DNA from: Cladocopium goreaui
Lineage: Eukaryota > Sar > Dinophyceae > Suessiales > Symbiodiniaceae
Direction of reading: 5' to 3'
Assembly (NCBI GenBank): GCA_947184155.2
Contig: CAMXCT020001413.1
Span: forward strand, 600,001 to 664,000
DNA length: 64,000 nt
Shown: piece by piece, positions 7,765-64,000 of the stretch
Layout of the letters: each line of letters starts with the position of its first letter
How positions within the stretch are numbered: position 1 is the first letter of the stretch
Notes under the pieces: model-generated
The model's database searches: none
The model's input: only the letters and a program-made list of their open reading frames with translations
Told to the model about the DNA's origin: nothing
Program-made: the position numbers and the translations under genes

Positions 7765-8110
7765 TCCTAACTCTGTGTAAAAGCTTGCTGTGTGCAAAGG
7801 CTTCTGTGTGTAAAAGCTCGTCTGTGTAAATGCTTCTCTGTGTTAGGGCTTCTCTCTGTGAAAGCTTGCTGTGTGTAAAGGCTTCTGTGTGCAAAAGTTT
7901 TTCTGTGTAAAAGCTTCTGTGGAAAAGTTTGCTGCGTGTAAAAGCTTCTGTGTAAAAGCTTCTCTGTGTAAGGGCTTCTCTGTGTAAAAGCTTCTGTGTG
8001 TAAAAGCTTCTGTGTGTAAAAGATTCTCTGTGTAAGGGCTTCTCTGTGTGAAAGCTTGCTGTGTGCAAAAGCTTCTGTGTGCAAAAGCTTCTCTGTGTAA
8101 AAGTTTGCTG
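7765..8110 (+). repeat. 16-bp satellite, left flank of element 1
   Basis: The same family as 4150-4680 in its TTCTCTGTGTAA form. It stops exactly where the 5' terminal repeat of element 1 begins and resumes at 19367 beyond the 3' terminal repeat, so element 1 sits inside one former array. Confidence 0.9.
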
Positions 8111-8624
8111 TGTGTGTGGGGCATCTGAAAAGATGTAAAACTTCTAACTCATGCACTGATTGTCATGATTGGCTTCTTTTTTTTATTTTGGACTTTTGCC
8201 GTCGTTACATTTGTTCAGATGCAGGGGGGCACAGAAGGCCCATAGAGCTGTGCCCAACGAAGCTCTCTATGGTGTCCTTAGGATATCCAGGCTGATCACC
8301 TGGACGTACCTGCACTCGTTTTGAATCAATTTGACTGTCATGGGACGTGGCTAACCCAAGAACCACCATGCCGTTTTCAAACAACCTGATTTCCAAGTTC
8401 TCGTTGGCACGGTTTTCGCAATCTGAATCACAAATGTCACTAGAGGATGAACGCGCTGCTTCAGAACAAGTTAATCCTTCGAGCAAGGACGTAGAAAGTT
8501 AATCTTCGCAGAGTATCTCACTTCCAATCATCAAACCACTCCTGTCAGGTTTACTGAGGTGTTTTTTGCACGTACGATGCATTCCACATCAATAATTCGA
8601 TAAGCTATTTCTGAGCAAGTGTGT
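8111..8624 (+). repeat. Element 1, 5' terminal repeat (family A)
   Basis: Starts GTGTGTGTGG and ends GAGCAAGTGTGT, so both edges are GT runs that blend into the target. It is nearly identical to 18851-19366. Its first 260 bases carry four potential hairpins (H1-H4, annotated separately) shared with families B and C and partly D. Its last 200 bases closely match family C (62871-63306), including TCCTTCGAGCAAGGACGTAG and AATTCGATAAG. No integrase-type TG...CA ends or tRNA primer site are evident. Confidence 0.9.
8122..8366 (+). ncRNA. Covarying structured motif in terminal repeat A
   Basis: H1: CATCT-GAAA-AGATG at 8122-8135. Closing stem: GCAGG (8221-8225) with CCTGC (8309-8313). H2: GGGCACAG (8227-8234) pairs with CTGTGCCC (8248-8255) over a 13-nt loop and is followed at once by AACGAAG. 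H3: TCCAGG (8286-8291) pairs with CCTGGA (8299-8304) around loop CTGATCA and is followed by CGTACCTGC. H4: GTGG (8347-8350) pairs with CCAC (8363-8366) around CTAACCCAAGAA. The same order occurs in families B and C, and H1-H3 in D, with different stem bases that still pair, while loops and joining segments stay conserved. That pattern indicates selection on structure. It could be a self-cleaving RNA, an RT-binding signal or a processing signal. It is not a canonical hammerhead, because I cannot find the CTGANGA and GAAA core around one junction. Confidence 0.65.
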
Positions 8625-9147
8625 CCTTCATACCGGTTTTCGTCAAGGTGGGATGAACCCTTCGGGGAAATCCTTTCCAGGCTAACATTTGACAGTAAAA
8701 CGATCTCTGAATTTACACTTTGGAATTAGTAATTCGTCTAAGTAAAGTGAACTGCCGGCCTTGTTTCCTGGTCTCACTTGTCGATGTCGATTTGTGTTGA
8801 ACAGCTGCCCGTTGTACTGGGGACTCAACCTTTTCAAGTGAATTTCAAGATGCCATTAGCCTGAAGCCACGCCAACAATCTTCCTTTTCAGTGGAGCTCA
8901 AGAGACTGCTCGCAGCCATTTACATATGAACAGGCAACAGGACATGCTTTCCAGGTTTGGTCACTTCCTTTTGGTTGTTTGGTGAGGTTCAATTGTGCAC
9001 GTAATTCAGGGGTTGAACACGTCAGCTGTCCAGAGGGTTTTGACTTGAATACCGAGGGCCTTTGAGCCTTATCACGAACCTTGCACGAATTGTGGATGCA
9101 TCTGTTTTGAACTAATTTTTTCACTTAAATAACCTGACAGTGCTGCC
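8625..9147 (+). promoter_or_regulatory. Element 1 leader with segments conserved in element 2
   Basis: Two parts match the leader of element 2. At 8715-8751 the core is ATTAGTAATTCGT(C/T)TAAG followed by TAAAG(T/C)GAA (partner 53523-53559). From 8922 ACATATGAAC is followed by scattered matches up to GGTGAGGTT and TAATTC (partner 53708-53786). Neither element has an obvious shared frame here, so the conservation is probably in RNA or DNA signals. An AG acceptor-like site (CCTGACAG) ends 7 bases before the ORF1 ATG. Confidence 0.5.
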
Positions 9148-11210
9148 ATGTTTCCTGGACGTTTTCCCAACGTCCCCGACACGATGTGGAACTTCGGATG
9201 GAATCCACAACCGATGGGACTTCAAGGTCAATTTTGTGGAGGTGATATGATGAATCAGCAGTCACAAGCTCAGTCTCAAGCTCAGACTCAGGCGCAACTT
9301 GCCTCTCTTAGGGAGCAAAACTCCAATCCTAAACCAGCAACTTGCGTCACAAGCTCAGTCTCATATCCAGCACCTTCAACAACTCATTCCTTTCCATCAA
9401 TCCACTTCGCAGCCTCACACAACTTCCACTCCACCTACTCCACAGCCAACACCTCAAGCGTCAGAACCACCAGTACCAGTGGCACCTCCATCCACACAAA
9501 CTGGATCCAGTGCATCCTTCAACCCTGAAGAGATGATGCAACAGATGAAGCACACAGTCGAATCCAGTATCCAGGCCTTTGTGGACAAGACCCAAGATCG
9601 AAACACGAGCCACCTTCCATCACCTTCACATCTACCAATTCCAGTCTCTCCACACACTATAAGCCATCCCCATCCACCTGATGAAATCCCATCACATCAA
9701 CGATCTCACCGTCGATCCCGGTCCCAACGTCATCGATCTGAATCCAGGAGACCTGACAAACGACCGGTCTCCATTCCTCGCAGCCCTCGCCGTCACACAG
9801 ATCCACACGACGAACCCGTCGTTCGTCACGACCTCGATCTTCCTCCAGAAGAAGACTCTCCACATCAAGACATGCCTCAAGACGACCAAGCAGGGCTAAG
9901 TCGATCACTCTGCGTTCAGCATCCCCACGACGTCGAGAAGTACGACATCGAGTACAAGATGACCATCCACCACAAGAACCAACTCACACACCAGCCACTC
10001 TCCAACCTGCATCGTGGGAACACCACCCACAACAGTCCTACTACACCACCAACACTCAGACACATTCCTACAACTACGACCAATATGCCACCAACAAGTG
10101 GCAATCCAGAGGACAATGGAAAGACTATCCAAAGTCCCCAAATACATCCAACGCTTCAGGTTGGATTGACTACCCAAAACCACCAGCCAGTCATCACAAC
10201 CAATATGACTCTTCCACCAAACCACTCACGGCATTCTCCTCCGACTCCAATACAACATATCATCAACCAAACAGACCATCACACAGGTCAGGTTCAGTCC
10301 AATCCCGTGGCTCAGCCACTGTCCCTCCAGGACATGTTGCCATCAACCTTCAAGATGGTTCCAAGGACGAGTGGGTTCGAAACATCAGATTTGCCTTGAG
10401 TCATCCTGAAAGGATGCGAGCGGCCAATGAAATTCCGGCTGCTGAACGGCCCAAGCCGCCAACGACGATGGACCACCACGACTACGAAAAGGCTTGTGAT
10501 CAGCTCCATCAGGTCGACCAACGCATCCCTCCGGATGTCATAAAAAAGGCGGTCCAACTATTTTTCAGCACCCACCTTCTACCCGACTACGATCTATCAA
10601 CTTGCCACGTCAGAGAACTTCCAGTCACCAACATGCTTGCACTCATCATGCCCTTACCCGACACCAGTCATTTCCAGATGCCATCTCCCTTTGGAAAACG
10701 TCAAAACCACACATGGGCGCTCCTTCATGGGACGTCACTTCATACTTCTCAGCAAATCCTCCTTGAAGGCAAGATCAGACCAGCCAACTGGTCCTATCAT
10801 CGAAACCTTCAACGTTGCGACTTGCCAACCTTCGGGGCATTCTACCTTGGCAGGGAAGTATCCAACAGTGACAAGACCATATCCCAGACTGGGCGGAGAG
10901 AGAGCTACTCGATGCTATCCAAAAGAAAGGAAAAGGACAGCAAGATATCGTCATCGGGGCGATGTATCGAGGATCAACCAACCACACCGCATACAAAGCT
11001 GGAGGCAATGAAATGGCGCAGCTCGGTGTGGTGGAAAAAGGAATCGTCACCACGTCTGAGAAGTACACGATTGCCCACAGCAACCATGTGCGATTGAAGT
11101 TTGTCGCTCTCAAGTGGCAAAACCTGAATATGAAGATCGACGTTGGCGACACATCCTCAGAAGATTATAACTATCGCAGCAATGAGGAACGTCACTCAGG
11201 TCGTCGTTGA
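9148..11210 (+). pseudogene. Element 1 ORF1: Pro/Gln-rich, Arg/Ser-rich protein with C-terminal HGTS domain
   Basis: Starts at ATG 9148 and reads MFPGRFPNVPDTMWNFGW. It needs three frame changes: at about 9310, about 9785 and about 10885. Order: Gln/Ala repeats (SQAQSQAQTQAQ); a Pro/Ser/Thr-rich stretch; an Arg/Ser domain at about 9690-9945 (SHRRSRSQRHRSESRRP, then RRTRRSSRPRSSSRRR); a Tyr/Asn/Gln-rich linker; then a compact domain at about 10380-11150. That domain contains WALLHGTSLHTSQQILLEGK, RCDLPTFGAFYLGREV, LLDAIQKKGKGQQDIVIGAM and KYTIAHSNHVRLKFVALKW. The HGT-S...IL..G and GAFYLG signatures recall ADP-ribosyltransferase-fold proteins (PARP or Tpt1 type), but this is a guess from motif shape. 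Element 2 has no counterpart. The frame breaks are single-base, so sequencing error or decay are both possible. Confidence 0.55.
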
Positions 11211-11469
11211 TGGCAGGACCTCAGCACTGAGCAGCTGTTATCATGTATTATTAGCTTTATTCGGCCTAAGCAGGAATCCGAATCTGACTTTTCTAGGGAC
11301 AACCTGGACACGCTTTTGATCAAAAAAGCACGGTTGCCCCAATCTGATTCTTTCACTGCTTCAGGAATCCAGGTGTGGTCAACTTCATTGCACTGCGTTG
11401 CAATTGCATCTTGCTGGAAGATTTCTTTGATGTTCGGTTTTCTAATTTGACTTCTTGATTGGTCCTACT

Positions 11470-11567
11470 TTTGGTTTCCCTGACTTTGACTGAACCTTTG
11501 TGTATTGCCTTGCAGTTTTGTTTTTGCCCCACAGCCTATTGAGAGAAGAACTGCGTGCCTTGATTCC
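11470..11567 (+). promoter_or_regulatory. Acceptor-like region before ORF2
   Basis: A T-rich stretch contains TTGCCTTGCAG and TTTTTGCCCCACAG, two good AG acceptors, shortly before the ORF2 ATG at 11568. It could be a spliced-leader acceptor or the end of a conventional intron after ORF1. The sequence alone cannot decide. Confidence 0.45.
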
Positions 11568-12975
11568 ATGGCGGACTCGGATCGATCTAGATCCCCAGTG
11601 CCTGGACGCAACCGTGCTGAACCTCGTGGACCAGTTCAACCGGTACGACAAGAACTACCTTTCTTCCCTCGCTGGTGCGGACCTATGCAAGCGGCTGTCT
11701 GGCACTCACAGCAAATGTCACGACCTCAGTTTCGACCTCAGTTCAACATGCAACAGTCGGGAGCTTATTTTTCGAATCAATCCACGAGCCAAACTTCCTC
11801 TATCCTGTCGGGCACATGGCCCAATCCACGCTTTCCACCTGCACCTCCGTCATCACCTCCACCAACTCTTGCATATCCAGTTCCACCTCGCCTTGCCACT
11901 CCACCTTGCTCACCTACCTTGCCTTGTCCACCAACCCAGGCTGCCTCACCCAGCACTCCATCCGTTCTGTCATCTCAGCCTCGTCATGCTGGCACTCCAC
12001 ATATGACCTCACCAGGAGGTCACACAACATTGGACGACAACCGGACTTATGGCTTCGATCTCAATCCTCATTGGCAAGAGGACAAAGACAATTACGACAA
12101 TCAGAAGATCAACGGCTTGACTTTCCCACGAACGATTCGTCAATCCGCCTTCACGCAAAAGCTGGACATCGAAGGATGTGATCCTTTGAAACTGCCAGTC
12201 GCGGCTTTGCTGTATCAGCAAGCCAACAACTTCTGGCTTCGCAAGCTGGCTCATGGACGTGAACTCTATTTGATCCCTACAGGAGACATCGCAGCAGTTG
12301 TTTTCATGACTGAGCTCTTGACGCAGCAAAGGAGTAGACCTGGACAAGGTCTCCTCAAGCCGGGCCAGACAAGACGGAAAGCTCCTGGACAAGACCAACA
12401 ACACCAAGTATGCGGCACAACAAGTGGCTGACCTCATCCACAGCTGTGTTCCGACCCGCACAGCAGATCCAGACACACAGCATGAGCTTACCCAACTCAG
12501 AAGTCAGCTGGCACAGCTGCGTCAGCAACTTGGAGAAGACACGGGTGAACCATCGACACCAGGCAATACGGGCCCCTCCCCTTCCAGCCCTGCTTCAACA
12601 CCCATCCAAGCAGCTCTCATGAGGAATTCTCAAAGTCCAGCACCTCCTGCACCACCGGGCTTTGACCCATCCTCCTTGCTGGTCGGCACTGCCACACTCA
12701 ATCCGTGGTTAGCTCAACATATGCCAACAACTCTTTCAGTGCGAGCTTTCAACAAATGGCTCAAAGATCTTCCACTATCGGATCCCAAAAGGAAAGTCCT
12801 TATGGACAACATTTCAAAAACAGAAGAATGATGGGGGAATCAACCGTCAGAGGCCATTGACACGGTTGAACGAGTCGCCGTGATGATGGGCATCCCTGTC
12901 AGTCTCCTGGGGAAGAACTACGATGCACTCAATCTCCTCAGGGTCATGACAGCGGCCATTAGTCTTACCAATTGA
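11568..12975 (+). pseudogene. Element 1 ORF2: Pro-rich protein with conserved C-terminal segment
   Basis: The start is ATG 11568 (MADSDRSRSPVPGRNRAEP), a short Arg/Ser opening followed by a Pro-rich region, then a folded-looking segment (HWQEDKDNYDNQKINGLTF; KLPVAALLYQQANNFWLRKL; GDIAAVVFMTELL). A one-base shift at about 12320 leads into KGVDLDKVSSSRARQDGKLL and a Pro/Ser-rich linker. An in-frame TGA at 12829-12831 interrupts KTEE/WGNQPSEAIDTVERV. The C-terminus VAVMMGIPVSLLGKN...LLRVMTAAISLTN matches ASVAMGIDACKL...VLKVMTVAMLMN in element 2 (end at 55983), which fixes the true frame. The function is unknown; by position it could be the RNA-binding or coat-like protein of the element. The TGA at 12973-12975 is followed in the same frame by ORF2'. 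Confidence 0.6.
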
Positions 12976-13200
12976 CTAGCACCTCACTTCCGAAGAAAAC
13001 TCAAGCACAAAGTGCTTCAATCCCATTTGCATATCCTTCATTCGATGATTCTCGTCATCTACCTTTTGACTCCCTTCACCATGACTCACAGCATCCACCT
13101 TTTTCAGGGTTTTCGCATCATCCAGACCCGCATGATGGTGTTAGCAATCCTCCATCGTCTTCGACCCAATCCCAAGCTGAAGTCAATTTTGGAAGGGTGT
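12976..13200 (+). CDS. Element 1 ORF2': small hydrophobic reading frame after a conserved TGA
   Basis: The frame stays open beyond the ORF2 TGA. From ATG 13045 it reads MILVIYLLTPFTMTHSIHLF then QGFRIIQTRMMVLAI. Element 2 at 56029-56184 has ILSLALLTPFTVSPSIEVFY then AFRMIQTMLMGQ in the same position and in the same frame relative to its own ORF2 stop. Similarity between the two copies implies a real product, either a separate small protein or a read-through extension of ORF2. Element 1 has TGA-CTAG, a context that favours read-through in eukaryotes. A membrane segment is possible. The downstream end is uncertain because the following GIY-YIG ORF overlaps in another frame. Confidence 0.5.
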
Positions 13201-13234
13201 ACAGATCTCAAACACCTGTGGGGCACCACCCTAC

Positions 13235-15925
13235 ACTCTCACAATCTTTTTTCAAGACCATTTTTCCGAACCTCAGAGTGTCTACATCCGTTTCACCCAT
13301 ATTGTGAATATGCAACCCAAATTTTATGTGGGCTCTGCAATGCATCATACTCTCGACAGAGAGTACAGTCGCTCACGAAAATACCTTCAACTCACCAATG
13401 AGCGACTCTTTCAAGCAGAGCTGGCACTTCGCTATTGGCAGGATCATGACAACCTGTACATTTGGGCCCCAATCCCAATCTACACAGACAGGACGGACTA
13501 TCGTAGCCTTGAAATGGCCCTCATTCAGGAGTGGCAACCCAGACTCAACTATCCCTTCATATGTCAATTCTTCCACCCAAAGAAGGGTATCCTCAAAAAA
13601 CCCCTTCTCAACACCAACGCACAGTTTGGTCTGGCCACTCTTTGGCGTTGAGCCAAACACAAAATCACTCCAAAACTCGTCCGCCAAATCTTGACCTCAT
13701 CACGGTTTCAAAACCGTCTAGAACTCTGGACCATCATCCACGCCTTAGGTTCAAATACCAAGGCAAGGTTCGAACAAACGAAGATGCTCAGATCGAATGA
13801 CGGTGGCCTCGCTCTCTGCTATGCTCTTCGCCGATTGGCAAACAACATCCAGGAGCCTTTCCGCACTCTTTCTCTGAATGCCATCGACGCCTCCATCAAA
13901 TGGTGGCACGGAAAACCGGCCCCACGGGCCTCTGCCCTACGCGCTCCATGGTCTGTCACTCCCAATCTCCAACAACAATTGAGAAAATTCCTACGACAGT
14001 GGCATTTCCAGATGCTCGAACATCAAGTTCCATGCCACACTCCATCCTTCAAGATGGTCTTTATCAAGCATGCTGCGGTCCTTGATCAACTTTGCAATCA
14101 CAAAAAAGCCATCGATGACTGGTCCACTTCCAACCCAGCGATCTGCTGTTGCCAGCACTGGTCATCGTACAAGTCAGCTGCCCTCAATCCTTCAGACTCA
14201 CATTGGGTCCTATCAGGCTCTCTCCTCCACTCCTTGCTACCACCAGAACTCGCGGTGATAGCCGAAGGATCCCTTTCCAACAAAGTTTTTCCTTCCAAAA
14301 AGGAATATCAGAATCAGATGCGACTTGGTATGAAAAACTGGACCAAGAGAAATGGCTTACCGTCCATGCCACACTCGAACATCTCTGACCTTTGCCATCA
14401 CCTCTGGTCAGAACACACTCATCAAATTACGAACCACATCACGAAGTCCTCCATCACTCAACTTCAAACCACCTTTGAAGGTGCCATTTTCCACTGCGAG
14501 GACAAACATTCCTCCTCCCTCCGCATTTACTGCCCATGCCTATATTACCAATCCATCGAACAAACCTTCCAAGATCCTTCGATCTTTGAACAACTTCCGG
14601 ACGAACCCACGTCTATTGTCACGTCACTCGTTGAATCCCTTCAACGACAACATGGAAAAGCCTATCCTTGGGCAGTCGGTTCTGGCAGACAACTCCCATC
14701 AGGCTACATTCTGGCCAAACGAAAGAAAGATTTCCGTAGTGCCCGACCCATCATTTCTTTTGTGGACTCACCATTCCGTCCCATGCTCAACATCCTTGCC
14801 CGTTTGATTTTCCAGCTCATTCCGGTCGCCTGTCCCAATCACTTTGCAACCGGAGATGTCTACACACTACTGTCCATTTTGAAGTCGGCGCCTGTCGACG
14901 CTGATCTCGTATTGGTCAACCAAGACCTCGCGGGCTTCTTCGACCAAGACAGATTTGTTAGATCCTGGTTTATGCTCCTGGACTTTCTACGTCCAAACAT
15001 GAATGTCTCAGATAATGAAGCCTTCTCGGTCTATCCGGGAAAATCCAACAATCCACGGGACATCATCAAAGGACGTACCTTCCGTCGCCTGAATGTCACC
15101 CGGAAAATCATCATCAAAGATGTCCCAGACCTTATCAAATCAGCGCTAAACATGCAGACTTTTGCATTGGGCCAAAAGTGCGTCCGTCAATGCAGAGGCA
15201 GTCCCATGGGCAGCCCCCTCTCGCCTGCCCTATGTCTGATGGTTGTCTCCATCAGTGAACAAATCTGGTCCATCACCTTCAATCAACTTCTTTCCAACCA
15301 CAACTTGTTCATCCGCCACATCCGCTACGTCGACAACCGTCTCATTTTTGGAGACAAACGCCTCACAGAACTTGCACCATATGAAGTCCTTCTCGATGAT
15401 GGCTTCTACGGAAAACCCATCATTCTTGAAACTGAACCTGACCAAGAATTTCTTGGCTTCATGCTTGAAACAAAACCACTGGAGCTGATATATCAAGGAC
15501 CGACGAATACGTCTCAAGTCCTTTCGCCGTTTTCAGCATCTCCTCCCAAAGTTCTGCTCAGTGGTTTCCGCTCACGCTGCCACATTGTCATCAAGGGTGC
15601 CTTCCCTGAATTTCGAGTTCAACAAGGTCTTGACCAATTAATTAATTTGTACACACGTGCTGGATTTCCCAAGGAGGAACTCCGAGCCATTTCCAATCAC
15701 ATTTTGATTCAGCATCAGAACCTTCAGCCGCCAAGTCAAACAAACGCTGCCTGTTTGCCACGTCGCGTTTCTTCTTCTTTTGGTTTTTCCTTTTCTTCCT
15801 CCTTTTTGTTGTTTCTTCCTTCTGTCTTTTCCTTGTCTCTTCCTTCTCCTGTTGTCTTAGGTATCTTCTTGCAGCTACTTGGCTCAATTCCCGCTCCACC
15901 CCGGCTTCTCTTGTTTTTGTATTGA
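13235..15925 (+). CDS. Element 1 GIY-YIG endonuclease-reverse transcriptase (Penelope-like, permuted)
   Basis: The endonuclease runs from about 13277 to 13650: VYIRFTHI, then FYVGSA (Tyr codon 13325), Arg in TLDREYSRSRK (13355), Glu in SLEMALIQEW (13511) and Asn in QPRLN (13547), the full GIY-YIG catalytic set. An in-frame TGA at 13649-13651 (LWR/AKHK) separates it from a 744-codon open RT frame (13691-15925), which is in the same frame. RT motifs, counted from 13691: motif A QDLAGFF with Asp412; motif B RGSPMGSPLSPAL from residue 502; motif C RYVDNR with Asp548 and Asn549 where most RTs have a second Asp; then PDQEFLGFML. The last 60 codons read through a C/T-rich tract and are probably untranslated or a tail. 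No ATG precedes VYI in frame, so the true start is unclear; element 2 has ATG 56285 three codons before its VYV. Endonuclease before RT defines the permuted Penelope-like class. The product would nick target DNA and prime reverse transcription in the nucleus. Confidence 0.8.
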
Positions 15926-15930
15926 ACATC
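15770..15930 (+). promoter_or_regulatory. Polypyrimidine tract and AG acceptors before ORF4
   Basis: About 100 bases are almost pure C/T, followed by GTTGTCTTAG and TTCTTGCAG. The ATG of ORF4 lies at 15931, 5 bases after the RT stop at 15923-15925. In a trans-splicing organism this is what a spliced-leader acceptor inside a polycistronic transcript would look like. Confidence 0.55.
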
Positions 15931-16863
15931 ATGGACCACGCTCAAGGTCGTGCTTTCCATCATCACCTGGCTCGGGCCATTATGCATCTGAACCACTTGG
16001 CTGGTCTTCTTCCTTTCTTCGAACCGTCCATTGAATGGGACGACTCCATGCCTTCGTCACACTTCCGCTTGGAACGTCCAACATCAAGGGGCCTCCACAC
16101 GTTTGTTCCCCTGCTCCTTCATCACATCCACCCACAATGGTGTCACATGGAGGCATCCCTTCACAGATGATTGTGAATCCTGAACCGAACCTACGTCCTT
16201 CCACAACGCAGCGCTTCCCTCATGGGGATGATGACCACATTCCAGGTTCGAACAATGAAGCCCGAAATCCAGTTCCCATAGCAGGACACGCTATGGATCC
16301 ATCTCCAGGCACCTCAATTGTCGCTGAACCTCCTCGGGCTACGACAAGGACCACGGTACCAGTACCTGTTCGGTCCAAACAACGGGCCTCATCAACTGAG
16401 GACCCACAACCGAAGAAGAAACAAAAATCAATGTCGGCTCCAGAATCCACTGCCACTGTAAAGTGTGGCTGCCCTGTTCCTCTTCCCATCATCTCCGAAA
16501 TCCCTCACGAAGGTTTCAACTCTGATGATTCAGATGATGGCGCGGCATCCGGTGCTGCTTCCACACATGATCATCCGGACACGAACCTCAATTACAGCAC
16601 CACCGTGCCACCCAACACCACTTCCACTACACCACCAGACACTTCAACACCACTCACCTTAACACCGAATCCAAATGCAACCATCCGCATCCTTCAACCA
16701 AACCCTGCTGATCCTCCGCGTGATCCACCATATCGTCCTTGGACAAACACAGACGATCAAGAGCTGATCAGCCTCAAACGAGATGGGGAATCTTGAAACA
16801 AACGGACCAACATGGTCGCGTTCACCCGCCTCATGAACCAGAGGCTGAGGACTAAACGGCACT
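15931..16863 (+). pseudogene. Element 1 ORF4: NLS plus Myb/SANT-like protein
   Basis: Starts at ATG 15931 (MDHAQGRAFHHHLARAIMHL). A frame change at about 16035-16060 leads into a long Pro/Thr/Ser-rich linker. It carries a basic cluster QPKKKQKS that looks like a nuclear localisation signal and an acidic NSDDSDDG patch. Near the C-terminus is PWTNTDDQELISLKRDGES, the first helix of a Myb/SANT fold, then an in-frame TGA (16794-16796), then NKRTNMVAFTRLMNQRLRTK to a TGA at about 16863. The element 2 homologue has an intact Myb/SANT domain with Trp close to the TGA position. Role (inference): nuclear DNA-binding protein, perhaps target choice or chromatin access. Similar Myb-type proteins occur in other mobile elements. 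Confidence 0.6.
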
Positions 16864-16889
16864 GACATTCCATCCAAGAAGAAAAAGTG

Positions 16890-17067
16890 TGCACCTGCTG
16901 TTTGCCTGCTTTCTCTTTCTTTTCTCCTTTGTCCTTTCTAGCGTTGACCTTTCTCTTCCTTTCTTTTCTTCTCTTCTCCTCCTTCCTTCCCCTCTTTTCC
17001 TCTCTCCTTCTTTCTTCTTCTCCTTACCGACTGCATGTTGTGTTAGGTTGTTCTTTCTCCATTAAAT
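16890..17067 (+). promoter_or_regulatory. Long polypyrimidine tract before ORF5
   Basis: About 130 bases of C/T-rich DNA (TTTCTCTTTCTTTTCTCC and similar) contain CCTTTCTAG and end with TGTTGTGTTAG. The ORF5 ATG follows at 17068. It has the same arrangement as before ORF4 and ORF6. Confidence 0.6.
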
Positions 17068-17675
17068 ATGGCTCACTCATCCGATTACGTATTGCCCCAG
17101 ATCGCTCCCGCTCACGGGACGAACCCATGTGGCAGACTCGGAACCAGCAACACCGCAGTCAATATCGGGACGCATGGCATGAGGTACCTCCAGTACCTCG
17201 ACTTCGGCAAGTACTTGTCATCGTCAACCTTGAAGCAGTTCGTCCACTCATCCGAAAAGTCCATGGTGATGTCATGGATTTAACAACCTGCGAGGCGCTA
17301 CCCGCTCGTGGCCGAATAGAAGAACTTGCTCTGTTCACCTACCATGTCTTGACCAGCACATATCATTTGGAAACACTCACGGTGAACAACCTGCTGTACT
17401 ACATCAGCCAGCACATCTGGTACACATGGAATCGCTACCTGCCTCCTTCCTCGATGGATCTCCGTTGGCAAGATCAGACTGGGGACACCTTTGCCCTTCG
17501 CAATGAGGACAGCCTGATTGAACTTCTCAATGAATTTCGTCCTCATTGGACTGAAGGCCAAGAATTTGGTATTCTATTTCCGAACAATATTCGACATTTC
17601 ACGTCTCAGAATCAGCCATACATCATGCGCCTGAGTTGCCATGAAGCACTTCCCAACCGCAACCTGCTTCCATAA
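17068..17675 (+). CDS. Element 1 ORF5: unknown protein
   Basis: ATG 17068 starts one frame (MAHSSDYVLPQIAPAHG). The conserved-looking frame is offset by one base and runs open to a TAA at 17675, so a frame shift near 17090-17110 is likely. Visible text includes RIAPDRSRSRDEPMWQTRNQ, then VLVIVNLEAVRPLIRKVHGD, FTYHVLTSTYHLETLTVNNL, YYISQHIWYTWNRYLPPSSM and ELLNEFRPHWTEGQEFGILF. Element 2 has a positional counterpart (59793 onward) with weak similarity over LFxxYxV...Y...VxxIxxxVxxxxxxxW...P. I do not recognise a family. The Trp/Tyr-rich character is shared with ORF6. Confidence 0.5.
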
Positions 17676-17689
17676 AGCGGGAAAAAGTT

Positions 17690-17813
17690 CACCATGCAGC
17701 ATGTGGCAATTTTCTTTTTCTTGGTTTTGTCTCCATTTGTTTGTTGGTGTTGGTTTTACTTTCTTGCCTCTTTCGCCCTGCTTCATCCCTCAGCTCTTGG
17801 CTTCAGCTTTAAT
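17690..17813 (+). promoter_or_regulatory. Polypyrimidine tract and AG acceptors before ORF6
   Basis: A T/C-rich stretch (TTTCTTTTTCTTGG, CTTTCTTGCCTCTTTCGCCC) leads to CATCCCTCAG and GGCTTCAG just before ATG 17814. It fits the acceptor pattern of the other ORFs. Confidence 0.55.
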
Positions 17814-18679
17814 ATGACAAAACGTGATTCCTGTCTCGCCGGTATCAACTCACCGCGGGCACCGACGAGCATGCAACGTCGTCATCTCCAGTTCGAGGGG
17901 CAATCTAGCAGTGGTGCCACATCCTCAGGTCAAAGACCTCAACCAAGCAGCGCCATGGACAATTTGTCCCCACAATCCCATCCGGGGATAGATCATAGCG
18001 GCAGTTCATCGTACTACGGGTATGCGTCAACTACCCCGTCTGTTCCTCTACCTGATGTTCCTGCCCACCATATCCCAATGCAGCCTTTGCGTGAAGAAGC
18101 CTACCCACTCCAGGCGGAGATCGAACAACAGCATCTAATTCTCCATACTCACATCTTCACAGAGGTCATATCTCCTCACCAGACAGGAGCCAGTCGCCTG
18201 ATGGTGACAGAAGTGGATCGTTCCGGTGTGAAACGAAACCGTCAACCGGAGTCCTTCTTCAATGGGATTGTTGGTCACATTCGTGCAGACCGTCACGGAT
18301 GGATAAACTCTTGGGAACAATCTACCCAACTTGCCAACTACTGGCGTCGTCACTTCAATATTCCAGAAGTGCACCATGGGCACGACTCTTGGCAACATCA
18401 CCCACAAACGTCTGACAATGCTGATCAACTGGACGAAAGCCTAGAATCAATACCGACCAGCTGGCCGCAGTTCTCTGGGACATTCTCAACAATGACAGGG
18501 ACTCCAATGCTGCGATCCTTGAGAAGCTTGAAAATCCAGGAGATGACTTGAGCACCAACCCGGTCCAGGTCTTTACGGCAACAGACTTGGCCCACCTTGC
18601 CAGTTATTTGGCTTTGACGACTCATGTCCTTGTCCAACAGGCCCAGAATATGGAAGAATTGTCCGAAATTGATGACTAA
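17814..18679 (+). pseudogene. Element 1 ORF6: unknown protein with conserved Trp-rich core
   Basis: Starts at ATG 17814 (MTKRDSCLAGINSPRAPTSM). A low-complexity N-terminus is followed by a core: LHTHIFTEVISPHQTGASRL, MVTEVDRSGVKRNRQPESFF, GWINSWEQSTQLANYWRRHF. A frame change at about 18445 leads to TDQLAAVLWDILNNDRDSNA ... TATDLAHLASYLALTTHVLV ... NMEELSEIDD and a TAA at 18677-18679. The core is clearly related to a reversed segment of element 2 (minus strand, about 61627-62010), and the C-terminus to element 2 at 62230-62319 (LTPDQLNAFTEALRIW...EELWDVD). Function unknown. Conservation across diverged elements says it is a genuine element protein. Confidence 0.6.
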
Positions 18680-18850
18680 CGACAAGCTGAACTTCCTGCC
18701 GATGTCGTTCTGAGCAGACCGGATAATTCAATTGCAGATTTCCTCCCTGTATTTTGATTTTGCGTCAATCGCTATATCCTGTTTCAGGGACTAGATAAGA
18801 GCTTCGCCAGCTACTATGCAGTCGCCAAAACAGCCTCGCGGCAGCGAGGC
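18680..18850 (+). other. Element 1 3' untranslated segment with terminal hairpin
   Basis: No coding signal. Immediately before the 3' terminal repeat is GCCTCG-CGGCAG-CGAGGC (about 18833-18850), a perfect 6-bp stem. Element 2 has a different hairpin (AGCAG...CTGCT) just before its own 3' repeat at about 62362-62380. It may mark the RNA 3' end or an RT recognition structure. Confidence 0.45.
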
Positions 18851-19366
18851 GTGTGTGTGTGGAACATCTGAAAAGATGTAAAACTTCTAACTCATGCACT
18901 GATTGTCATGATTGGCTTCTTTTTTTATTTTGGACTTTTGCCGTCGTTACATTTGTTTAGATGCAGGGGGGCACAGAAGGCCCATAGAGCTGTGCCCAAC
19001 GAAGCTCTCTATGGTGTCCTTAGGATATCCAGGCTGATCACCTGGACGTACCTGCACTCGTTTTGAATCAATTTGACTGTCATGGGACGTGGCTAACCCA
19101 AGAACCACCATGCCGTTTTCAAACAACCTGATTTCCAAGTTCTCGTTTGCACGGTTTTCGCAATCTGAATCACAAATGTCACTAGAGGATGAACACGCTG
19201 CTTCAGAACAAGTTAATCCTTCGAGCAAGGACGCAGAAAGTTAATCTTCGCAGAGTATCTCACTTCCAATCATCAAACCACTCCTCTCAGGTTTACTGAG
19301 GTGTTTTTTGCACGTACGATGCATTCCACATCAATAATTCGATAAGCTATTTCTGAGCAAGTGTGT
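18851..19366 (+). repeat. Element 1, 3' terminal repeat (family A)
   Basis: Direct copy of 8111-8624 with the H1-H4 structured motif intact. By eye the differences are C/T, G/T, G/A, T/C and G/C substitutions plus short length changes near the start and in a T-run. It ends AGCAAGTGTGTGT, where the 16-bp satellite resumes. Confidence 0.9.
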
Positions 19367-30095: not shown

Positions 30096-31054
30096 CGTGT
30101 GTGTGTGTGACAAACCCTGAAACAAAGGGTCAACAGCAAGGGGGTCACCCACGACCTTGACTGGTGACCCAACGAAGAGGGTCCAGGCTCGTGCTAATAC
30201 TGCAAAACTGTTGTGATCGCCAGGTACTAATTTGATCCCGCTTGTTTCTGAATGCCAACTGGGCAAGGCCAAAAACCCAGCACGCGGAACCATGAATTTT
30301 TATGTCATCTCATTTCATCCTCTCCCTTCGGGGTGTTTTCAAGTGTGTATTTCACGCGCCTGGATCTCTGATAAAGTGACGGGGAAGCTGGGCGGTGCGT
30401 TGATCGGGGGTACCATAAAATCTTCAGAATTCGCCAGACTTTATGTTGCCAAGCAGTACTTGCACAAGCATCCAGAGTTCGTTTCAGATTTTGCCAGCGG
30501 AAGCAGCTTGAATGTCTGATTTCATTTTCAGACTTCGCCAGATGGTGAACTCCAGACTTTTCATCTCAGATTTCGACGTGTCATCCATGCATCATGTTCA
30601 CTTAACAACTTACCTTGCAGTCATGACCATGCAACCTTGTCATGTTCATGGGGGCAGTTCACCGCAGTTTGCAGATGCCTTTTAATGCCTAAGTTAGCCT
30701 AAGTTTCACTGTGCAGCTGAGGCGGGATTCCTCGACAACACCACCGAGGACAGCCTTTCTCGTTGTAAAAACTGCGCCCGTGCAGCTTGTTGTGTGCGAG
30801 AAACCCTGAAACAAAGGGTCAACAGCAAGGGTCACCCACGACCTTGACTGGTGACCCAACGAAGAGGGCCAAGGTTCGTGCTGATGCCTGGCCTGCTCAG
30901 CCAGACGTACCTGCAAAACTGTTGTGATCGCCAGGTACTAATTTCTTGTTTTTGAATGGCAACTGGGCAAGGCCAAAAACCCAGCACGCGGAACCATGAA
31001 TTTTCATTTCATCTCATTTCATCCTCTCCCTTCGGGGTGTTTCCAAATGTGTGT
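30096..31054 (+). mobile_element. Non-autonomous element with family D terminal repeats
   Basis: Two direct repeats (30096-30348 and about 30789-31054) flank about 440 bases without coding capacity. Each repeat begins in a GT run, carries H1 (ACCCT...AGGGT) and the H2-AACGAAG motif of families A-C, and ends in TTC(G)GGGTGTTT(T/C)CAA(G/A)TGTGT. The shared text ends with GCAAGGCCAAAAACCCAGCA and CATCTCATTTCATCC. The second copy has H3; the first has lost about 29 bases covering it. It is likely a short derivative (a TRIM or retrozyme-like form) mobilised by a relative of elements 1 and 2. Confidence 0.65.
30803..30914 (+). ncRNA. Covarying structured motif in terminal repeat D
   Basis: H1 ACCCT/AGGGT at 30803-30819. 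H2 GGGTCACC (30829-30836) with GGTGACCC (30850-30857), then AACGAAG. H3 CTGGC (30888-30892) with GCCAG (30900-30904) around CTGCTCA, then ACGTACCTGC. The stem bases differ from A, B and C but remain complementary. Confidence 0.6.
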
Positions 31055-45694: not shown

Positions 45695-46245
45695 GAGGAG
45701 CTTTTACACAGACGCGTTTACACACAGAGGCTTTTACGCACAGAAGCTTTTACACAGAGAAGTCTTTATACAGACTGGCTTGTACACGCAGAAGCTTTCA
45801 CACAGAGAGAAACCTTTACAGAGAGGAGCTTTTACGCACGGAAGCTTTTACACAGAGAAGTCTTTATTTTACACTGAGGAGATTTTGCACACAAACGCGT
45901 TTACACAGAGGAGCTTTTACACACAGAAGCTTTTACACAGAGAAGTGATTATACACACAGACGCGTTTGCACACAGAAGCGTTTACACAGAGAAGCCTTT
46001 ACACAGGAGCTTTTACACACAAGGGCGTTTACACACAGACGCTGTTACTGTGACACAAAGAAGCCTTTACACAGAGAGCTTTAACCCACAGGCGCGTTTA
46101 CAGACAGAAACTTTTACGCAAAGAAGTCTTTACACAGAGAGCTTTCACACACGGAAGCTTTCACACACAGAAGTTTTTACACAGAGAAGTCTTTACACAG
46201 AGAAGCTTTTACACGCAGAAGCTTTTTCACACAGAAGTTTATCCA
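45695..46245 (-). repeat. 16-bp satellite, reverse-complement array
   Basis: TTTACACAGAGAAG(C/T) units are the complement of the forward arrays. The plus-strand 194-codon frame here is the same His/Thr/Phe-rich peptide repeat that appears on minus elsewhere. Confidence 0.95.
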
Positions 46246-46261
46246 TGAATGTGCTCAAAAA

Positions 46262-46368
46262 AGCATAAGGAATATATTTCTGAAGCAGCAGGTCCTCATT
46301 CAATAGCTTTCAAGCCCACCCTGCGATGACACCGAGGGTCAAATACTCCGGCGGAGCCGACGATGAGT
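46262..46368 (-). repeat. Inverted copy of 917-1023
   Basis: CATAAGGAATATATTTCTGA, AGCAG(CA)GGTCCTCATTC and GCCCACCCTGCGATG match the complement of the left locus. As on the left, it lies next to the 16-bp satellite. Confidence 0.75.
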
Positions 46369-52939: not shown

Positions 52940-53425
52940 GTGTGTGTGGCACATCTGTACAGATGTAAAACGTCAGGGTTCTTGCAGTTGTCAGCAGGGG
53001 GCACAGGTGTGACTCTGGTTCCTGTGCCAACGAAGACGGCCAGAAGTCACAGTGATATCAAAGGGAGACGTCCCTTTGACGTACCTGCTTCAATTTCATT
53101 TCATGTCATGTTTCTGGGACGGGATGTGGCTAACCCAAGAACCACCGTGCCGTTTCCAAACCATTTTGTTTTCAACTTCTCGTGCTGCACTGTTGTTGCA
53201 ATCTGTATTTATTTATTTTCGACGTCTTGGTCCTGGTCTACGGTTCATTTGATGTGGATTTCGATTTGATGACATTCATGGCAGCGATTGTCTTCTCGGA
53301 GTACCTCATATATTGATCAGCTTAGGATAGCTTAGGTTCCCATTTTTGTTTGTTCCTGACTAATTTGCATGTTGCAGGACTCAGTTCCTGATGGGTCTCT
53401 TCAAAGATCCAATTTTGTCTAGTGT
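52940..53425 (+). repeat. Element 2, 5' terminal repeat (family B)
   Basis: Begins GTGTGTGTGGCACATCTG and ends TTTTGTCTAGTGT. It matches 62392-62874 with scattered substitutions and an 8-base and a 10-base length difference. It carries H1-H4. Its 3' half is unrelated to families A and C, so only the structured front part is shared. Confidence 0.9.
52951..53150 (+). ncRNA. Covarying structured motif in terminal repeat B
   Basis: H1 ACATCT-GTAC-AGATGT (52951-52966). Closing stem GCAGG (52994-52998) with CCTGC (53084-53088). H2 GGCACAGG (53000-53007) with CCTGTGCC (53021-53028), then AACGAAG. H3 TCAAAGGGA (53058-53066) with TCCCTTTGA (53071-53079), then CGTACCTGC. H4 GTGG...CCAC around CTAACCCAAGAA. 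H3 has a longer stem and a different loop than in A, yet the same flanks. Confidence 0.65.
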
Positions 53426-55983: not shown

Positions 55984-56028
55984 ATAGCCAGCCACCTGAA
56001 TTCTCGGGACTCAAAAGCAGTCCACATC

Positions 56029-56184
56029 ATGAGAGACCTCACCGTTGTTCATGCAGGTATTTTGTCGCTAGCTCTGCTCACCCCGTTTACTGTGTCTCCT
56101 TCGATTGAAGTTTTTTACGCCTTCCGTATGATTCAAACGATGTTGATGGGTCAGTATATATGTTCTGCTGCACCCAAAAAGTAA
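56029..56184 (+). CDS. Element 2 ORF2': small hydrophobic ORF
   Basis: In the same frame as the ORF2 TGA 45 bases upstream; from ATG 56029 to TAA 56184. It reads HAGILSLALLTPFTVSPSIE then VFYAFRMIQTMLMGQY. LLTPFT...SI..F..FR.IQT.MM is shared with element 1. The product would be 51 residues with one probable membrane-like segment, or an extension of ORF2 if the TGA is read through. Confidence 0.5.
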   Translation: MRDLTVVHAGILSLALLTPFTVSPSIEVFYAFRMIQTMLMGQYICSAAPKK

Positions 56185-56249
56185 TTCGAAGTTGCAAGCT
56201 CCGATCAACGGCACACCTTTTCGGCGATTATTTCATTGCACATCGTGGG

Positions 56250-56284
56250 ATGACCTCGCGTCTTTCCTCAGCTGTTTCAAACAA
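56250..56284 (+). promoter_or_regulatory. Acceptor-like site before the GIY-YIG/RT ORF
   Basis: GCGTCTTTCCTCAG lies 14 bases before ATG 56285, with no other AG in between. The ATG is three codons before the GIY-YIG motif, so this site defines the likely mRNA start of the endonuclease-RT protein. Confidence 0.5.
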
Positions 56285-58709
56285 ATGAACGCTGTGTATG
56301 TCAGGTTTTCTCATATCGCGAATTTCCAACCAAAGTTTTATTTGGGTTCCACCTCGTCGTTTGTCCTTTGTCGCGAACATTCTCGTTACCGAAAGTTCTT
56401 ACAAGTCCAACAAAAACAAATTTTTCTTGGCCGAAGTGGCTTTGAGATTTTGGTGCCGATATGACAACTTTTGGATGTGGTCGGTTTTGCCTATTTACAC
56501 CAACAAATCAAACTTCTGGGCTTTGGAACAAGCCTTAATTCAATTGCGGCAACCTCGGCTGAATACTTCGTTCATTTATCAATTTTTCAGCTGTCGGAAG
56601 GGGCTTATCGCCTGTTCCAAATTTTCCAGCTCGCGACAATTCGGAACCTTCTCGCTGTGGCGCAAACTTCGTTGGGCTTCCACCCCACAACATGTTCGAC
56701 GAGCTCTTCAGTCCCCTTTTCCATCGGCGAGTACACCTTTGGGAAATCATCCCGGATTTGGGCAGCAACTCCGTCAAGCGGCTTCCACATGGAGAAAAAA
56801 ATCAGATCCGACGAAATCGGCACCCAGGGATGCTACTTCATTCGACGTTTGGCCAACAACCTCGGTGAACCTCAGCGCTCCTATGCCATCAACGCCATCG
56901 ACAGGGCCCTGAAGTTTTGGAAGGCAAAACCTGTTCGCAAACCAACTCCACTCCGAGCACCTTGAATCCTTTCACCCACTTGGACCCGAGATCTTCGCAA
57001 ACTTCTCACGTCTCATACCCACAATACCAAACAATGCAATGTTACCCGGCCTTCAACCGCCTTCTACGAGCGTCGTCTTCACCAAGTACCCTTCAGTCAT
57101 GGACAGCCTACTATGCAATCACAAGGACCAAGCCACACGATGGGCCGATGGGGAATCGCCAACATGCACGTGTCCAACCATGCGACCATATATTAATATC
57201 TATCCTGCACCTCCAGAAGATCAACACCTCATCCTTGACGGCGACACTTTGCACTTCCAGGACCAGCCCTTAACCTCCATTGCGACGGGCTCCCTACAGA
57301 ACAAGATCTTCCCACCTCAAAAAGAGATCTTCAAATCCCTCCAAGATGCTATCCCAACGTGGTCCAAAAAGAACTCACTCCCCTCGGTGTCCTGTCGGAA
57401 TATTGAGGACCTCTGGACCAGCTCAAGGCACAACCACAATATTTCACTCCACGACCACATCACCCACAAGGACATCGCTCGTTTTCAACAATTATTCCCC
57501 GATGCCGTGTTCCACAACGAAGACAAACGGGCTACTTCGCTTCGAATAATATTCTGCCCCTTCGTATACTACGAATGCCTCACGAACACCTTTTCTGACC
57601 CTCTGGTCTTTCGGAAACTCGATGCCACTCCAGCTGCCATCATCGACAACACCATCGACGAGATCACCATGCAGTTTGGCAAGATATACCCCTGGGCCTT
57701 GGGCTCTGGGCGAGACCTCCCGAATGCCTTACGTCCTACCGAAGAGGCAAAAACAGTTTCGCTCTGGCAGACCGATCGTCAGTTTCTTCTCGGCACCTTT
57801 TCGACCGATGCTGAATTGCATTGCCAAACTCATCTATCAACTTTTACCCAAAGCTTTCCCACACAACTTGGCAAAGGGCGACGTCTTTGCCCCCTCATCA
57901 AACTCCTCAAGACCACTGACTTTGACGCTATATCTACCCCACAAATCTACAATTAAAATCTTGCAGGCTTCTTCACGAGCATCGACACAGACCGATTCCT
58001 GGACAGCTGGCGCCTCACGCTTCAATACTTGTCATCCACTATGAGCACCAACCCCGATGAAATCATTTCCGTGAAACCCACGACTGGCAACACGACCGGT
58101 GACGTGGTCAAAGGCCGAAGGTGTCGCACCCCCAACGTAACCCGCAAGATCTACATCAGAGACATTGAGGCCATCATCCTCATGTCCTTGAAGATGACCC
58201 AGTTCTCCTCTGTTTACCAACAAATTCGTGGCTCCCCGATGGGATCTCCACTGAGCCCCGCTCTTTGCTTGATGGTCGTCCCACTCTCCGAGGAGATCTG
58301 GCATCGCACCTTTTCCGATACTCTGGCTTCGATGGACCTGACATCCCGCCTTCTTCGCTATGTGGACAACAGACTTTGTTTGGTGGATCCCTCTTGGCAC
58401 TACGAACCAGCTTTCGCCAACTTCCTTCACCCGGAGTTCGACGGCAAGCCTGTTATCCTGGAAACGGAACCAGACCAGGAATTCTTGGGCTTCTGCATTG
58501 AGTTTGAACCCTTCGCTCTACGATATCGTCCACCGAGAGACTTTAACCAGGTCATGGCTCCATTCTCAGCTTCACCGCTGGACGTTCAACTTTATGGCTT
58601 TGTGTCCAGACTGTTTTTGGTCGCTAAATGTGCGTACTTAATCCGAACAGCTACGAGGTTTTGCCGCATTGCATCGCTTGTACAAAGCTGCAGGCTTCCA
58701 GGAACCTGA
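56285..58709 (+). pseudogene. Element 2 GIY-YIG endonuclease-reverse transcriptase, broken
   Basis: Starts MNAVYVRFSHIANFQPKFYL, the GIY-YIG core right at the N-terminus. Arg in LCREHSRYRKF, Glu in ALEQALIQLRQ and Asn in PRLN are kept. A one-base shift in a T-run at about 56425 and another near 56800 break it. TGA 56963-56965 (LRAP/ILSP) replaces a Trp codon of element 1. The RT continues through shifts at about 57735 and about 57900 and a TAA at 57954-57956. Motif A reads NLAGFF, with the catalytic Asp changed to Asn. Motif B IRGSPMGSPLSPALCLMVVP and motif C RYVDNRL are intact, followed by PDQEFLGFCIE. The loss of the motif A Asp makes it catalytically dead even if frames were intact. Confidence 0.75.
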
Positions 58710-62391: not shown

Positions 62392-62874
62392 GTGTGTGTG
62401 GCACATCTGTACAGATGTCAAACTTCAGGGTTCTTGCAGTTGTCAGCAGGGGGCACAGGTGTGACTCTGGGTCCTGTGCCAACGAAGACGGCCAGAAGTC
62501 GCAGTGATATCAAAGGGAAACGTCCCTTTGACGTACCTGCTTCAATTTCATTTCATGTCATGTTTCCGGGATGGGATGTGGCTAACCCAAGAACCACCGT
62601 GCCGTTTCCAAACCATTTGTTTTCAACTTCTTGTACTGCACTGTTGTCGCAAGCTGTATTTATTTATTTTCGACGTCTTGGTCCTGGTCTACGGTTCATT
62701 TGATGGTATCTGGTGGATTTCGATTTGATGACATTCATGGCAGCGATTGTCTTCTCGGAGTACCTCATATATTGATCAACTTAGGTTCCCATTTTTGTTT
62801 GTTCCTGACTAATTTGCATGTTACAGGACTCAGTTCCTGATGGATCTCTTCAAAGATCCAATTTTGTCTAGTGT
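62392..62874 (+). repeat. Element 2, 3' terminal repeat (family B)
   Basis: Direct copy of 52940-53425 with H1-H4 preserved. It runs straight into family C through a shared GTGTGTGTG. Confidence 0.9.
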
Positions 62875-63306
62875 GTGTGTGAACCATCTGAATAGATGTA
62901 AAACTTCTACCATGTTTCTGCAGGGGGGCAGTGAATCTCATTCCATCCACTGCCCAACGAAGACGGTGGTTTGAGATTGTGATATCGGGACTGATCATCC
63001 CGACGTACCTGCAATTTCCAATTTTCAGTTTGTCGTCACTGGCCACCGGCTAAGCCCAGAACCGGCATGTCGCTTTTCCAACTGTTTTCGAACCAAACAA
63101 CTGTACGATTTTCGCAATCTGACTGAGCTGCATCAGAACAAGTAAATCCTTCGAGCAAGGACGTAGAAAGTTTTCCTTCGCACAGTTTCTCACCTCTAAT
63201 CATCCAAACCGTTCCTGTCAGGTTTACTGCGGTGTTTTTTGCACGTATGATGCATTCCGAATCAGTATATAATTCGATAAGATATTTCTGAGCAAGTGTG
63301 TGTGTG
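62871..63306 (+). repeat. Solo terminal repeat, family C
   Basis: Starts GTGTGTGTGTGAACCATCTG and ends TTTCTGAGCAAGTGTGTGTG. Its last 200 bases are close to family A (TCCTTCGAGCAAGGACGTAG, GTTTTTTGCACGTATGATGC). No partner or internal region is visible within the window, so it is a solo repeat or the start of an element whose remainder is lost. Confidence 0.8.
62885..63082 (+). ncRNA. Covarying structured motif in terminal repeat C
   Basis: H1 CATCT-GAAT-AGATG (62885-62898). H2 GGGCAGTG (62926-62933) with CACTGCCC (62948-62955), then AACGAAG. H3 TCGGGA (62985-62990) with TCCCGA (62998-63003) around CTGATCA, then CGTACCTGC (63004-63012), which can close with GCAGG at 62920. H4 CCGG with CCGG around CTAAGCCCAGAA, where A and B have GTGG with CCAC. 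Confidence 0.65.
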
Positions 63307-64000
63307 CCAGTGCGTGTGACAGTGTGGAAGTGCGCATTGAGTTTTTGCTCGAAGGCAACAGCTCATATAGCTGTGCCCTCCGGCATTAGGAACCAGACTC
63401 AGAGGATTTCTGCCTCTCCCAGCTTTAAGCTCCCAATCGCCTTTGCCGTTGAGAAGTGCATCTCTTCGTTCCAAAAGCGCCATGATGGCTCGGCTCGCGT
63501 GCCAAAAGATGGCCCACATTTGTGTTTGGGTTTGGCCTGTGTTTGTTTGTCAGTCGGTTTGTCGGTTTGTCGGTTTGTCGGTTTGTCGGTTTGTTTGTTT
63601 GTTTTGTTTTGTTTTGTTTTGTTTGTTTGTTTGTTTGTTTTTTGTTTGTTTGTTTGTTTGTCTGTTTGTTTGTTTGTTTGTTTGGTTTGTTTGGTTTGTT
63701 TGGTTTGTTTGTTTGTTTGTTTGTTTGTTTGTTTCTGTTCGTTTGTCTGTCTACAGTTTGAATGTGTGCCTGCGTGTCTGTGTGCCTGCGTGCCTGCATG
63801 CCTGCGTGCCTGCGTGCGCGTCTGCTGCGTGCAGGAACAAACGAAAGCGTCTGCTGTGAGTCAAAATGTAAAGCCCCGATCCATACCCTGAACCCACACG
63901 CCGGTCCATACCCCCGATCCATACCAAAACGCAGGTGATCCAGACCTTTCCATACGTCTGGATCACCGCGGGCCGATCCATACCCGAATTTTGACGCAAC
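63307..64000. other. (GTTT)n microsatellite and unrecognised right edge
   Basis: 63540-63760 is (GGTTTGTC)n then (GTTT)n. 63765-63830 is GCCTGCGTGC repeats. 63870-64000 has GATCCATACC words in both orientations. No gene recognised. Confidence 0.8.

Follow-up and report, generated by a model that had tools for sequence, protein, structure and literature searches.

A covarying, pseudoknotted RNA domain in the terminal repeats of putative Penelope-like elements of Cladocopium goreaui

An RNA domain of approximately 90 nt, flanked by the hairpins H1 and H4, is encoded in the terminal repeats of retroelements within a 64-kb stretch of the genome of the dinoflagellate Cladocopium goreaui (the window, numbered from its first letter). 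The domain lies in the sense RNA of the repeats, on the same strand as the reverse transcriptase (RT), and it is shared by four families of repeats (A, B, C and D). Covariation was shown for two hairpins of the domain (H2 and H3), for a pseudoknot formed by the H2 loop, and for H4. That one knotted shape is kept while the letters change points, from comparison of the copies, to an unrecognised working part of the retroelement. The chance that the domain is a cis-acting RNA by which the machinery of the element picks its template is put at about even (roughly 0.5). Little is known of how RNA structure contributes to the mobilisation of Penelope-like elements, and a compact, strongly covarying domain offers a direct test object for RT template recognition, or for a new ribozyme, as well as a seed for covariance models with which dinoflagellate genomes can be searched for such elements.

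Distribution of the domain in the window

The core of the domain can be written as AACGAAG followed, after 20 to 50 nt, by ACGTACCTGC. Six full copies of this pattern were found in the window (at 8256, 18998, 30858, 53029, 62481 and 62956), each on the forward strand, compared with none in 100 dinucleotide shuffles. The six belong to the 5' and 3' repeats of element A, the 5' and 3' repeats of element B, and elements C and D (Table 1); the positions given for the four families in the initial annotation all proved correct on direct reading. A descriptor scan added a seventh, damaged copy (D1, at 30171), in which the exact D-type H2 is kept and H3 and GACGTAC are lost.

Element A spans approximately 8109-19366; its terminal repeats measure about 516 bp, the 5' repeat opening with TGTGTGTGTGG and closing with AAGTGTGT, and its two repeats show no difference across 8222 to 8313. 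Element B spans approximately 52940-62874, and the repeats of the two elements range from about 490 to 516 bp. Element C begins inside the GT run that ends the 3' repeat of B, which gives a head-to-tail B-C arrangement. Element D is a short non-autonomous unit, with motif copies 687 bp apart and no open reading frame (ORF) of 150 aa inside it in the ORF list. When approximately 1 kb around each repeat was compared by blastn (E 1e-3), D had no match to A or B; its matches to C were one of 65 bp within the RNA domain and one of 21 bp outside it.

Table 1. Features of the elements and of the RNA domain, in window coordinates.
Feature	Position	Strand	Remarks
Element A, 5' terminal repeat (pseudo-LTR)	8109..8624	+	98.45% identical over 516 columns to 18852-19366
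H1 hairpin of A	8122..8135	+	CATCT-GAAA-AGATG, direct reading
Core RNA domain of A	8221..8313	+	order GCAGG, H2, pseudoknot, AACGAAG, GATATC, H3, GACGTA, CCTGC
H2 hairpin of A	8227..8255	+	8 bp, 13-nt loop 8235-8247
3' pseudoknot strand of A	8265..8279	+	CTCTATGG pairs CCATAGAG, CCTT pairs AAGG of the H2 loop; -16.0 kcal/mol, shuffle p 0.0014
H3 hairpin of A	8286..8304	+	TCCAGG-CTGATCA-CCTGGA
H4 hairpin of A	8339..8370	+	GTGG-12 nt-CCAC, possibly extended by CATG/CATG
Element A, putative GIY-YIG-like domain and RT	13247..15757	+	stop codon between two pieces; 87.6% identical to P0010 (tblastn)
Element A, 3' terminal repeat	18852..19366	+	RNA domain identical to 5' copy
Element D, short unit with two terminal repeats	30103..31053	+	D1 ~30103-30348, D2 ~30792-31053
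D1 motif copy	30142..30203	+	retains H2 and AACGAAG; has lost H3 and GACGTAC
Core RNA domain of D2	30825..30914	+	loop/3' strand pseudoknot -13.7 kcal/mol, p 0.0124
Element B, 5' terminal repeat	52940..53425	+	RNA domain 52994-53088; 93.3% identical to 62392-62874
Element B, putative GIY-YIG-like domain and RT	56156..58637	+	damaged, with a stop and its pieces in several frames; these show 37-53% identity to A-type homologues (tblastn)
Element B, 3' terminal repeat	62392..62874	+	RNA domain differs from 5' copy at three sites
Element C	62872..64000	+	RNA domain 62920-63012; continues beyond window end

Pairing and covariation of the domain

Four different H2 stems had been reported by the initial annotation, each with an exact 8-bp complement, and they were recovered as A GGGCACAG, B GGCACAGG, C GGGCAGTG and D GGGTCACC. 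The loops measure 13, 13, 14 and 13 nt, respectively, with AACGAAG directly after the hairpin, as had been noted. All four stems pair at 8/8 positions with their own partners and at only 3-6 of 8 when the partners are swapped. The description of H3 also stood, with four different stems, ACGTACCTGC after each, and the loop CTGATCA in A and C, CTGCTCA in D and another in B. H1 had been said to vary with its pairing kept; this is the case for D, which has ACCCT/AGGGT (30803-30819) in place of CATCT/AGATG, but H1 is invariant in A-C. The proposed closing stem of GCAGG and CCTGC fared worse, as no covariation was found for it: the stem is invariant in A-C, and D2 is without GCAGG and keeps GCA/TGC with a bulge. 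GCAGG may close onto CCTGC, although this is unproven. A covarying hairpin that had been overlooked, H4, lies approximately 35 nt downstream, with the stems GTGG/CCAC in A, CCGG/CCGG in C and CTGGG/CCCAG in D.

The pseudoknot was likewise absent from the earlier description. The nucleotides directly after AACGAAG are the complement of the H2 loop in each of the four families, and the predicted loop helices are AAGG.C.CCATAGAG with CTCTATGG.TGT.CCTT (A), TGTGACT.CTGG with CCAG.A.AGTCACA (B), AATCTCA..CCATC with GGTGG..TGAGATT (C) and CACGA.CCTTG with CAAGG.T.TCGTG (D). Duplex energies with the native partners were -16.0, -18.5, -15.7 and -13.7 kcal/mol for A, B, C and D (the B value used a loop two letters too long and becomes -18.2 kcal/mol with the correct cut), compared with -2.8 to -12.2 kcal/mol for the 12 swapped pairs; composition shuffles of the duplex energy gave p values of 0.0014, 0.0014, 0.0004 and 0.0124. 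With its loop cut correctly, B scored 11.1 against no more than 7.2 for the others in its row. A separate pairing score ranked the native loop assignment first among the 24 permutations of A-D (shuffle p 0.001, 0.00025, 0.01025 and 0.00275), and first among 720 when the codon-ambiguous families P0217 and P0203 were added.

These two additional families came from translated repeats. P0217 may represent a fifth family, with an H3 of its own (compatible by eye with GATCCA/TGGATC) and a codon-ambiguous loop helix that is supported at p 0.00175, but its score of 6.5 stands against 5.9 for the best swapped partner. P0203 had been read by eye as a sixth pseudoknot family; its own partner was no better than shuffles (p 0.87), and it was not counted.

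Covariation was followed into more copies by means of predicted proteins, drawn with an antisense ORF across the A repeat (83 matches) and a sense ORF across the B repeat (29 matches, one of them the window's own), a sampling that biases the translated matches towards the families of the queries. The H3 motif is held by 66 of the 83 A-type matches (17 were dropped), which yield 12 distinct stem combinations. Nine of the 12 are fully pairable by some codon choice, compared with 5 of 124 swapped combinations, and none of 5000 permutations reached the native sum; the three imperfect combinations are each one residue away from a fully pairing one. For H4, 41 of the 83 matches hold the motif (42 dropped) and give nine combinations scored at two base pairs, seven of them fully pairable against 8 of 62 when swapped, with the native value reached in 6 of 20000 permutations. 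An 8-bp H2 together with both cores is compatible with 63 of the 112 matches (49 being incompatible or cut short), a figure that has no control and is weakened by codon ambiguity. A compensatory change of A-T to G-C in H2 distinguishes P0212 from P0209. The claim of selected RNA structure made in the initial annotation is upheld by the swap comparisons for H2 and H3, and a weaker, codon-ambiguous form of the refuting check proposed there, run on translated stems in place of R-scape, did not overturn it.

The stems are kept in young copies as well, given the identity of the two A repeats in this region and the three substitutions between the B repeats, which spare the H2 and H3 stems. The first substitution falls in the H3 loop, the second turns an A-U pair of the loop helix in B 5' into G-U in B 3', and the third lies in the 3' tail of the H2 loop, outside the Watson-Crick part. 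In the predicted loop duplex of B 3', two terminal G-U pairs are lost, which changes the energy from -18.2 to -16.4 kcal/mol. The loop helix of C contains a U-G pair. The G-U pairs in B 3' and C fit the sense RNA, because the antisense RNA would have A-C mismatches at these places.

It is highly improbable that the pairing is incidental and that the repeats resemble each other through recent homology, through conservation of an antisense peptide, or through palindromes that act in DNA binding. Such an origin would suit the 88% identical stretch of 175 bp that A and C share further on in the repeat (blastn), and the antisense translation is well conserved among the matches, though these were found by its own words. 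However, stems and loops change together and swapped partners fail, the open frame is antisense in A and sense in B, and the interleaved pairing of H2 and its loop cannot form as simple DNA cruciforms.

The first nucleotide of the H2 loop already pairs, so that a complete H2 and a complete loop helix look strained together and may not both be complete; one of them may fray, or both may alternate. In pseudoknot-free minimum free energy (MFE) folds, H2 forms 8/8 pairs in B and C and 0/8 in A and D, and H3 forms 5/6 pairs in A, all in B and C, and 0/6 in D. Barring the 5' strand of H2 costs 2.5 kcal/mol in A, 2.1 in B, 2.6 in C and 7.9 in D, and the loop helix then forms in A-C. As these H2-barred nested folds lie within 2.1-2.6 kcal/mol in A-C, a switch is possible: H2 and the loop helix, both of which covary, would alternate, acting as a two-state switch or as an RNA-stability element with control over translation, packaging or resistance to exonucleases. 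We regard such a function as improbable, given the much higher cost of the same bar in D, the unrestrained MFE folds of A and D, which are without H2 and whose bar costs are therefore not the price of H2 itself, and the tight spacing, which would also be in keeping with a real pseudoknot frayed at one end.

Template recognition and self-cleavage as candidate roles

The template-recognition reading has a precedent in R2Tg, the RT of which binds a pseudoknotted element of its own 3' UTR to start target-primed reverse transcription (PMC12222951). Here too a pseudoknot in the retroelement's own RNA would serve as the handle of the RT, although the fold differs from that of R2Tg, as far as the latter is described there (PMC12222951), and the present domain occurs in both terminal repeats. 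The RT/endonuclease would select and position its template RNA via the pseudoknot domain, and GT-rich RNA ends would anneal to a nicked CA/GT microsatellite and so prime reverse transcription. Element D would carry the same handle and be moved in trans. The domain is common to the RT-carrying units (A and B) and the short non-autonomous one (D), and the blastn comparison of D with A, B and C gives the pattern expected of a handle for trans-mobilisation.

Several observations point the other way. In the single in vitro study of a Penelope-like element that was found, the authors locate the protein-binding motif within the initial 172 nt of the ORF, and the full pLTR is dispensable (PMC11167929); a binding motif at the start of the ORF in that system counts against a template handle in the terminal repeats. 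Within the present data, the same is true of the P0203 result (p 0.87), the margin of 6.5 against 5.9 in P0217, the loss of pairs in B 3', and the MFE folds of A and D without H2. In the same in vitro system, mutants of the hammerhead left insertion unaffected (PMC11167929).

The strongest rival to template recognition, although rather unlikely in our estimation, is a new self-cleaving ribozyme that cuts tandem or read-through transcripts to unit length, a task that falls to hammerheads in retrozymes and in pseudo-LTRs elsewhere among Penelope-like elements. The domain sits in the same kind of place as those hammerheads (PMC11167929; PMC7761336). Its junction with a pseudoknot, its strongly conserved letters and its covariation are marks that were sought in one ribozyme hunt, whereas its length of approximately 90 nt exceeds the 50-80 nt expected there (PMC10085705). 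Sharing between RT-carrying and short non-autonomous units recalls the hammerheads common to Penelope-like elements and retrozymes (PMC7761336). The head-to-tail B-C array also fits self-cleavage, as do the place, complexity and invariant unpaired letters of the domain; on the other side, no cleavage site can be named, no Rfam ribozyme was matched even in permissive mode, and none of the ribozyme topologies compared (HDV, hammerhead, pistol, twister and hatchet) seems to fit.

Searches for known RNA families covered the whole window with Rfam 15, which gave no match at the gathering score, hammerhead included. Permissive Rfam searches of the repeat pieces returned 2 (A), 7 (B), 2 (C) and 4 (D) sub-threshold matches, far below the cut-offs and none of them a ribozyme, and hammerhead models found nothing to E 10 in these pieces. 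The likeness to the hammerheads of Penelope-like pseudo-LTRs consists in a structured RNA, expected in non-autonomous partners too, within the terminal repeat of RT-encoding, tandem-forming elements; the present domain differs in its helices and in its core of AACGAAG/GATATC/GACGTA, and it has no Rfam hammerhead match. A permuted hammerhead was set aside, as the invariant CUGANGA is missing. Element D is, like retrozymes, a short unit with an RNA motif in its repeats, and differs from them in having no hammerhead match.

The pistol family, which belongs to the Rfam library, comes nearer in outline: both folds have two successive hairpins, the loop of the first pairing with a downstream strand. 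It was set aside since the strand order, compared by eye, seems to differ, the possible closing 5' strand here preceding the first hairpin, and since Rfam gave no match. An HDV-like fold was set aside as well: in it the pseudoknot partner would be a strand upstream of GCAGG; here it is the H2 loop. A possible closing stem outside H2 separates the present domain from the topologies of pistol, HDV and twister alike, none of which had an Rfam match.

Relatives of the domain were also sought in other contigs. In viral contigs a loose pattern occurred in at least 120 stretches, and among the matches listed none of 120 had an 8-bp H2 adjoining AACGAAG with a loop of 11-16 nt, while 13 of 120 reached 7 of 8 H2 pairs with G-U allowed. 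By eye, most of these stretches resemble protein-coding families, and they were taken as chance matches. A tighter pattern that included GATATC was found neither in viral nor in genome contigs, and among the top-listed open-licence papers none on the AACGAAG/H2-loop pseudoknot fold was found.

In its fullest form the cleavage reading would hold that a new class of pseudoknotted-junction ribozyme replaces the hammerhead in the pseudo-LTRs of dinoflagellate permuted Penelope-like elements and drives short, retrozyme-like partners, a proposal that we regard as doubtful. The hammerhead of the Penelope-like in vitro system needed protein to cleave (PMC11167929), so a cleavage test without protein could miss a ribozyme.

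The elements and their proteins

Elements A and B are provisionally assigned, from their sequence, to the permuted Penelope-like elements, in which the endonuclease is N-terminal. The features expected of Penelope-like elements were found in the form of an RT domain, pseudo-LTRs (the repeats of A and B), tandem copies (the run of B into C) and microsatellite targets (the GT ends). The family assignment of the A/B protein is weak. The Naiad/Chlamys clade of permuted Penelope-like elements, which Craig et al. reportedly described in 2021, is said to prefer microsatellites and to be without hammerheads. A and B resemble Naiad/Chlamys in their terminal repeats with GT runs at the ends, in the head-to-tail arrangement of copies and in the putative GIY-YIG-like motifs that precede the RT, and differ from them in extra ORFs up- and downstream and in a YVDN in RT motif C.

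Upstream of the RT lies the motif series VYIRF...FYLGS...REYSR...LE-ALI...RLN, conserved also in B, which resembles the motifs of a GIY-YIG endonuclease. The GIY-YIG domain in Pfam had no match in the endonuclease-like piece; the predicted fold of this piece is of low confidence (pLDDT 52.4), and Foldseek returned a best E of 1.2 with no GIY-YIG among the 50 rows listed. The RT of A contains a 611-residue stretch with 312 homologues, of which the best 120 were listed (some from EukProt), and displays the motifs GSPMGSPLSPAL and RYVDN. RVT_1 matched P0010 at E 9.2e-5 and the ORF of the window at 9.5e-4; both matches fall short of the Pfam cut-off, and a group II RT model at E 1.6e-5 likewise stays below its cut-off. 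The homologue P0068 (89% identical) is annotated with PF00078. An RT profile had no match to E 10 among PDB chains, and the full-length AlphaFold model of the RT protein was poor (pLDDT 37.8). Matches to an RT-profile pattern numbered 26 in viral contigs and 79 in genome contigs, none of them a relative by tblastn.

Motif C of the RT reads YVDN instead of YxDD in both RTs of the window (13691-15922 and 57957-58706) and in 9/9 homologues compared, which would make YVDN an unusual catalytic pair conserved in the family. The ORF downstream of the RT (16035-16793 in A; 58939-59547 in B) resembles a Myb-like DNA-binding protein, with a Pfam E of 4.8e-6 in the homologue P0118 and of 0.039, below the cut-off, in the B ORF. 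On the reverse strand at 8205-8498, part of the antisense translation of the repeat has a match in a public proteome, with 87% identity across 32% of the query, to the gene model Skav206905, the prefix of which presumably denotes Symbiodinium (Fugacium) kawagutii, a Symbiodiniaceae dinoflagellate. This gene model is probably an annotation artefact derived from a transposon.

GT runs mark both ends of the terminal repeats (8109-8120, 19358-19370, 52940-52949 and 62868-62882). Together with the start of C in the terminal GT run of B, these runs suggest that the elements may insert into GT/CA microsatellites by primer-template annealing. Arrays of an approximately 16-bp TGTGTAAAAGCTTC-type tandem repeat occupy stretches between about 4100 and 8110, 19330-20395 and 45682-46283 (inverted at 45.7 kb), and element A sits within one of them. 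Elsewhere in the window, 42709-43543 forms a near-perfect inverted repeat, foldback- or MITE-like, with arms of approximately 250 nt each (94-97% complementary) around a centre of 332 nt.
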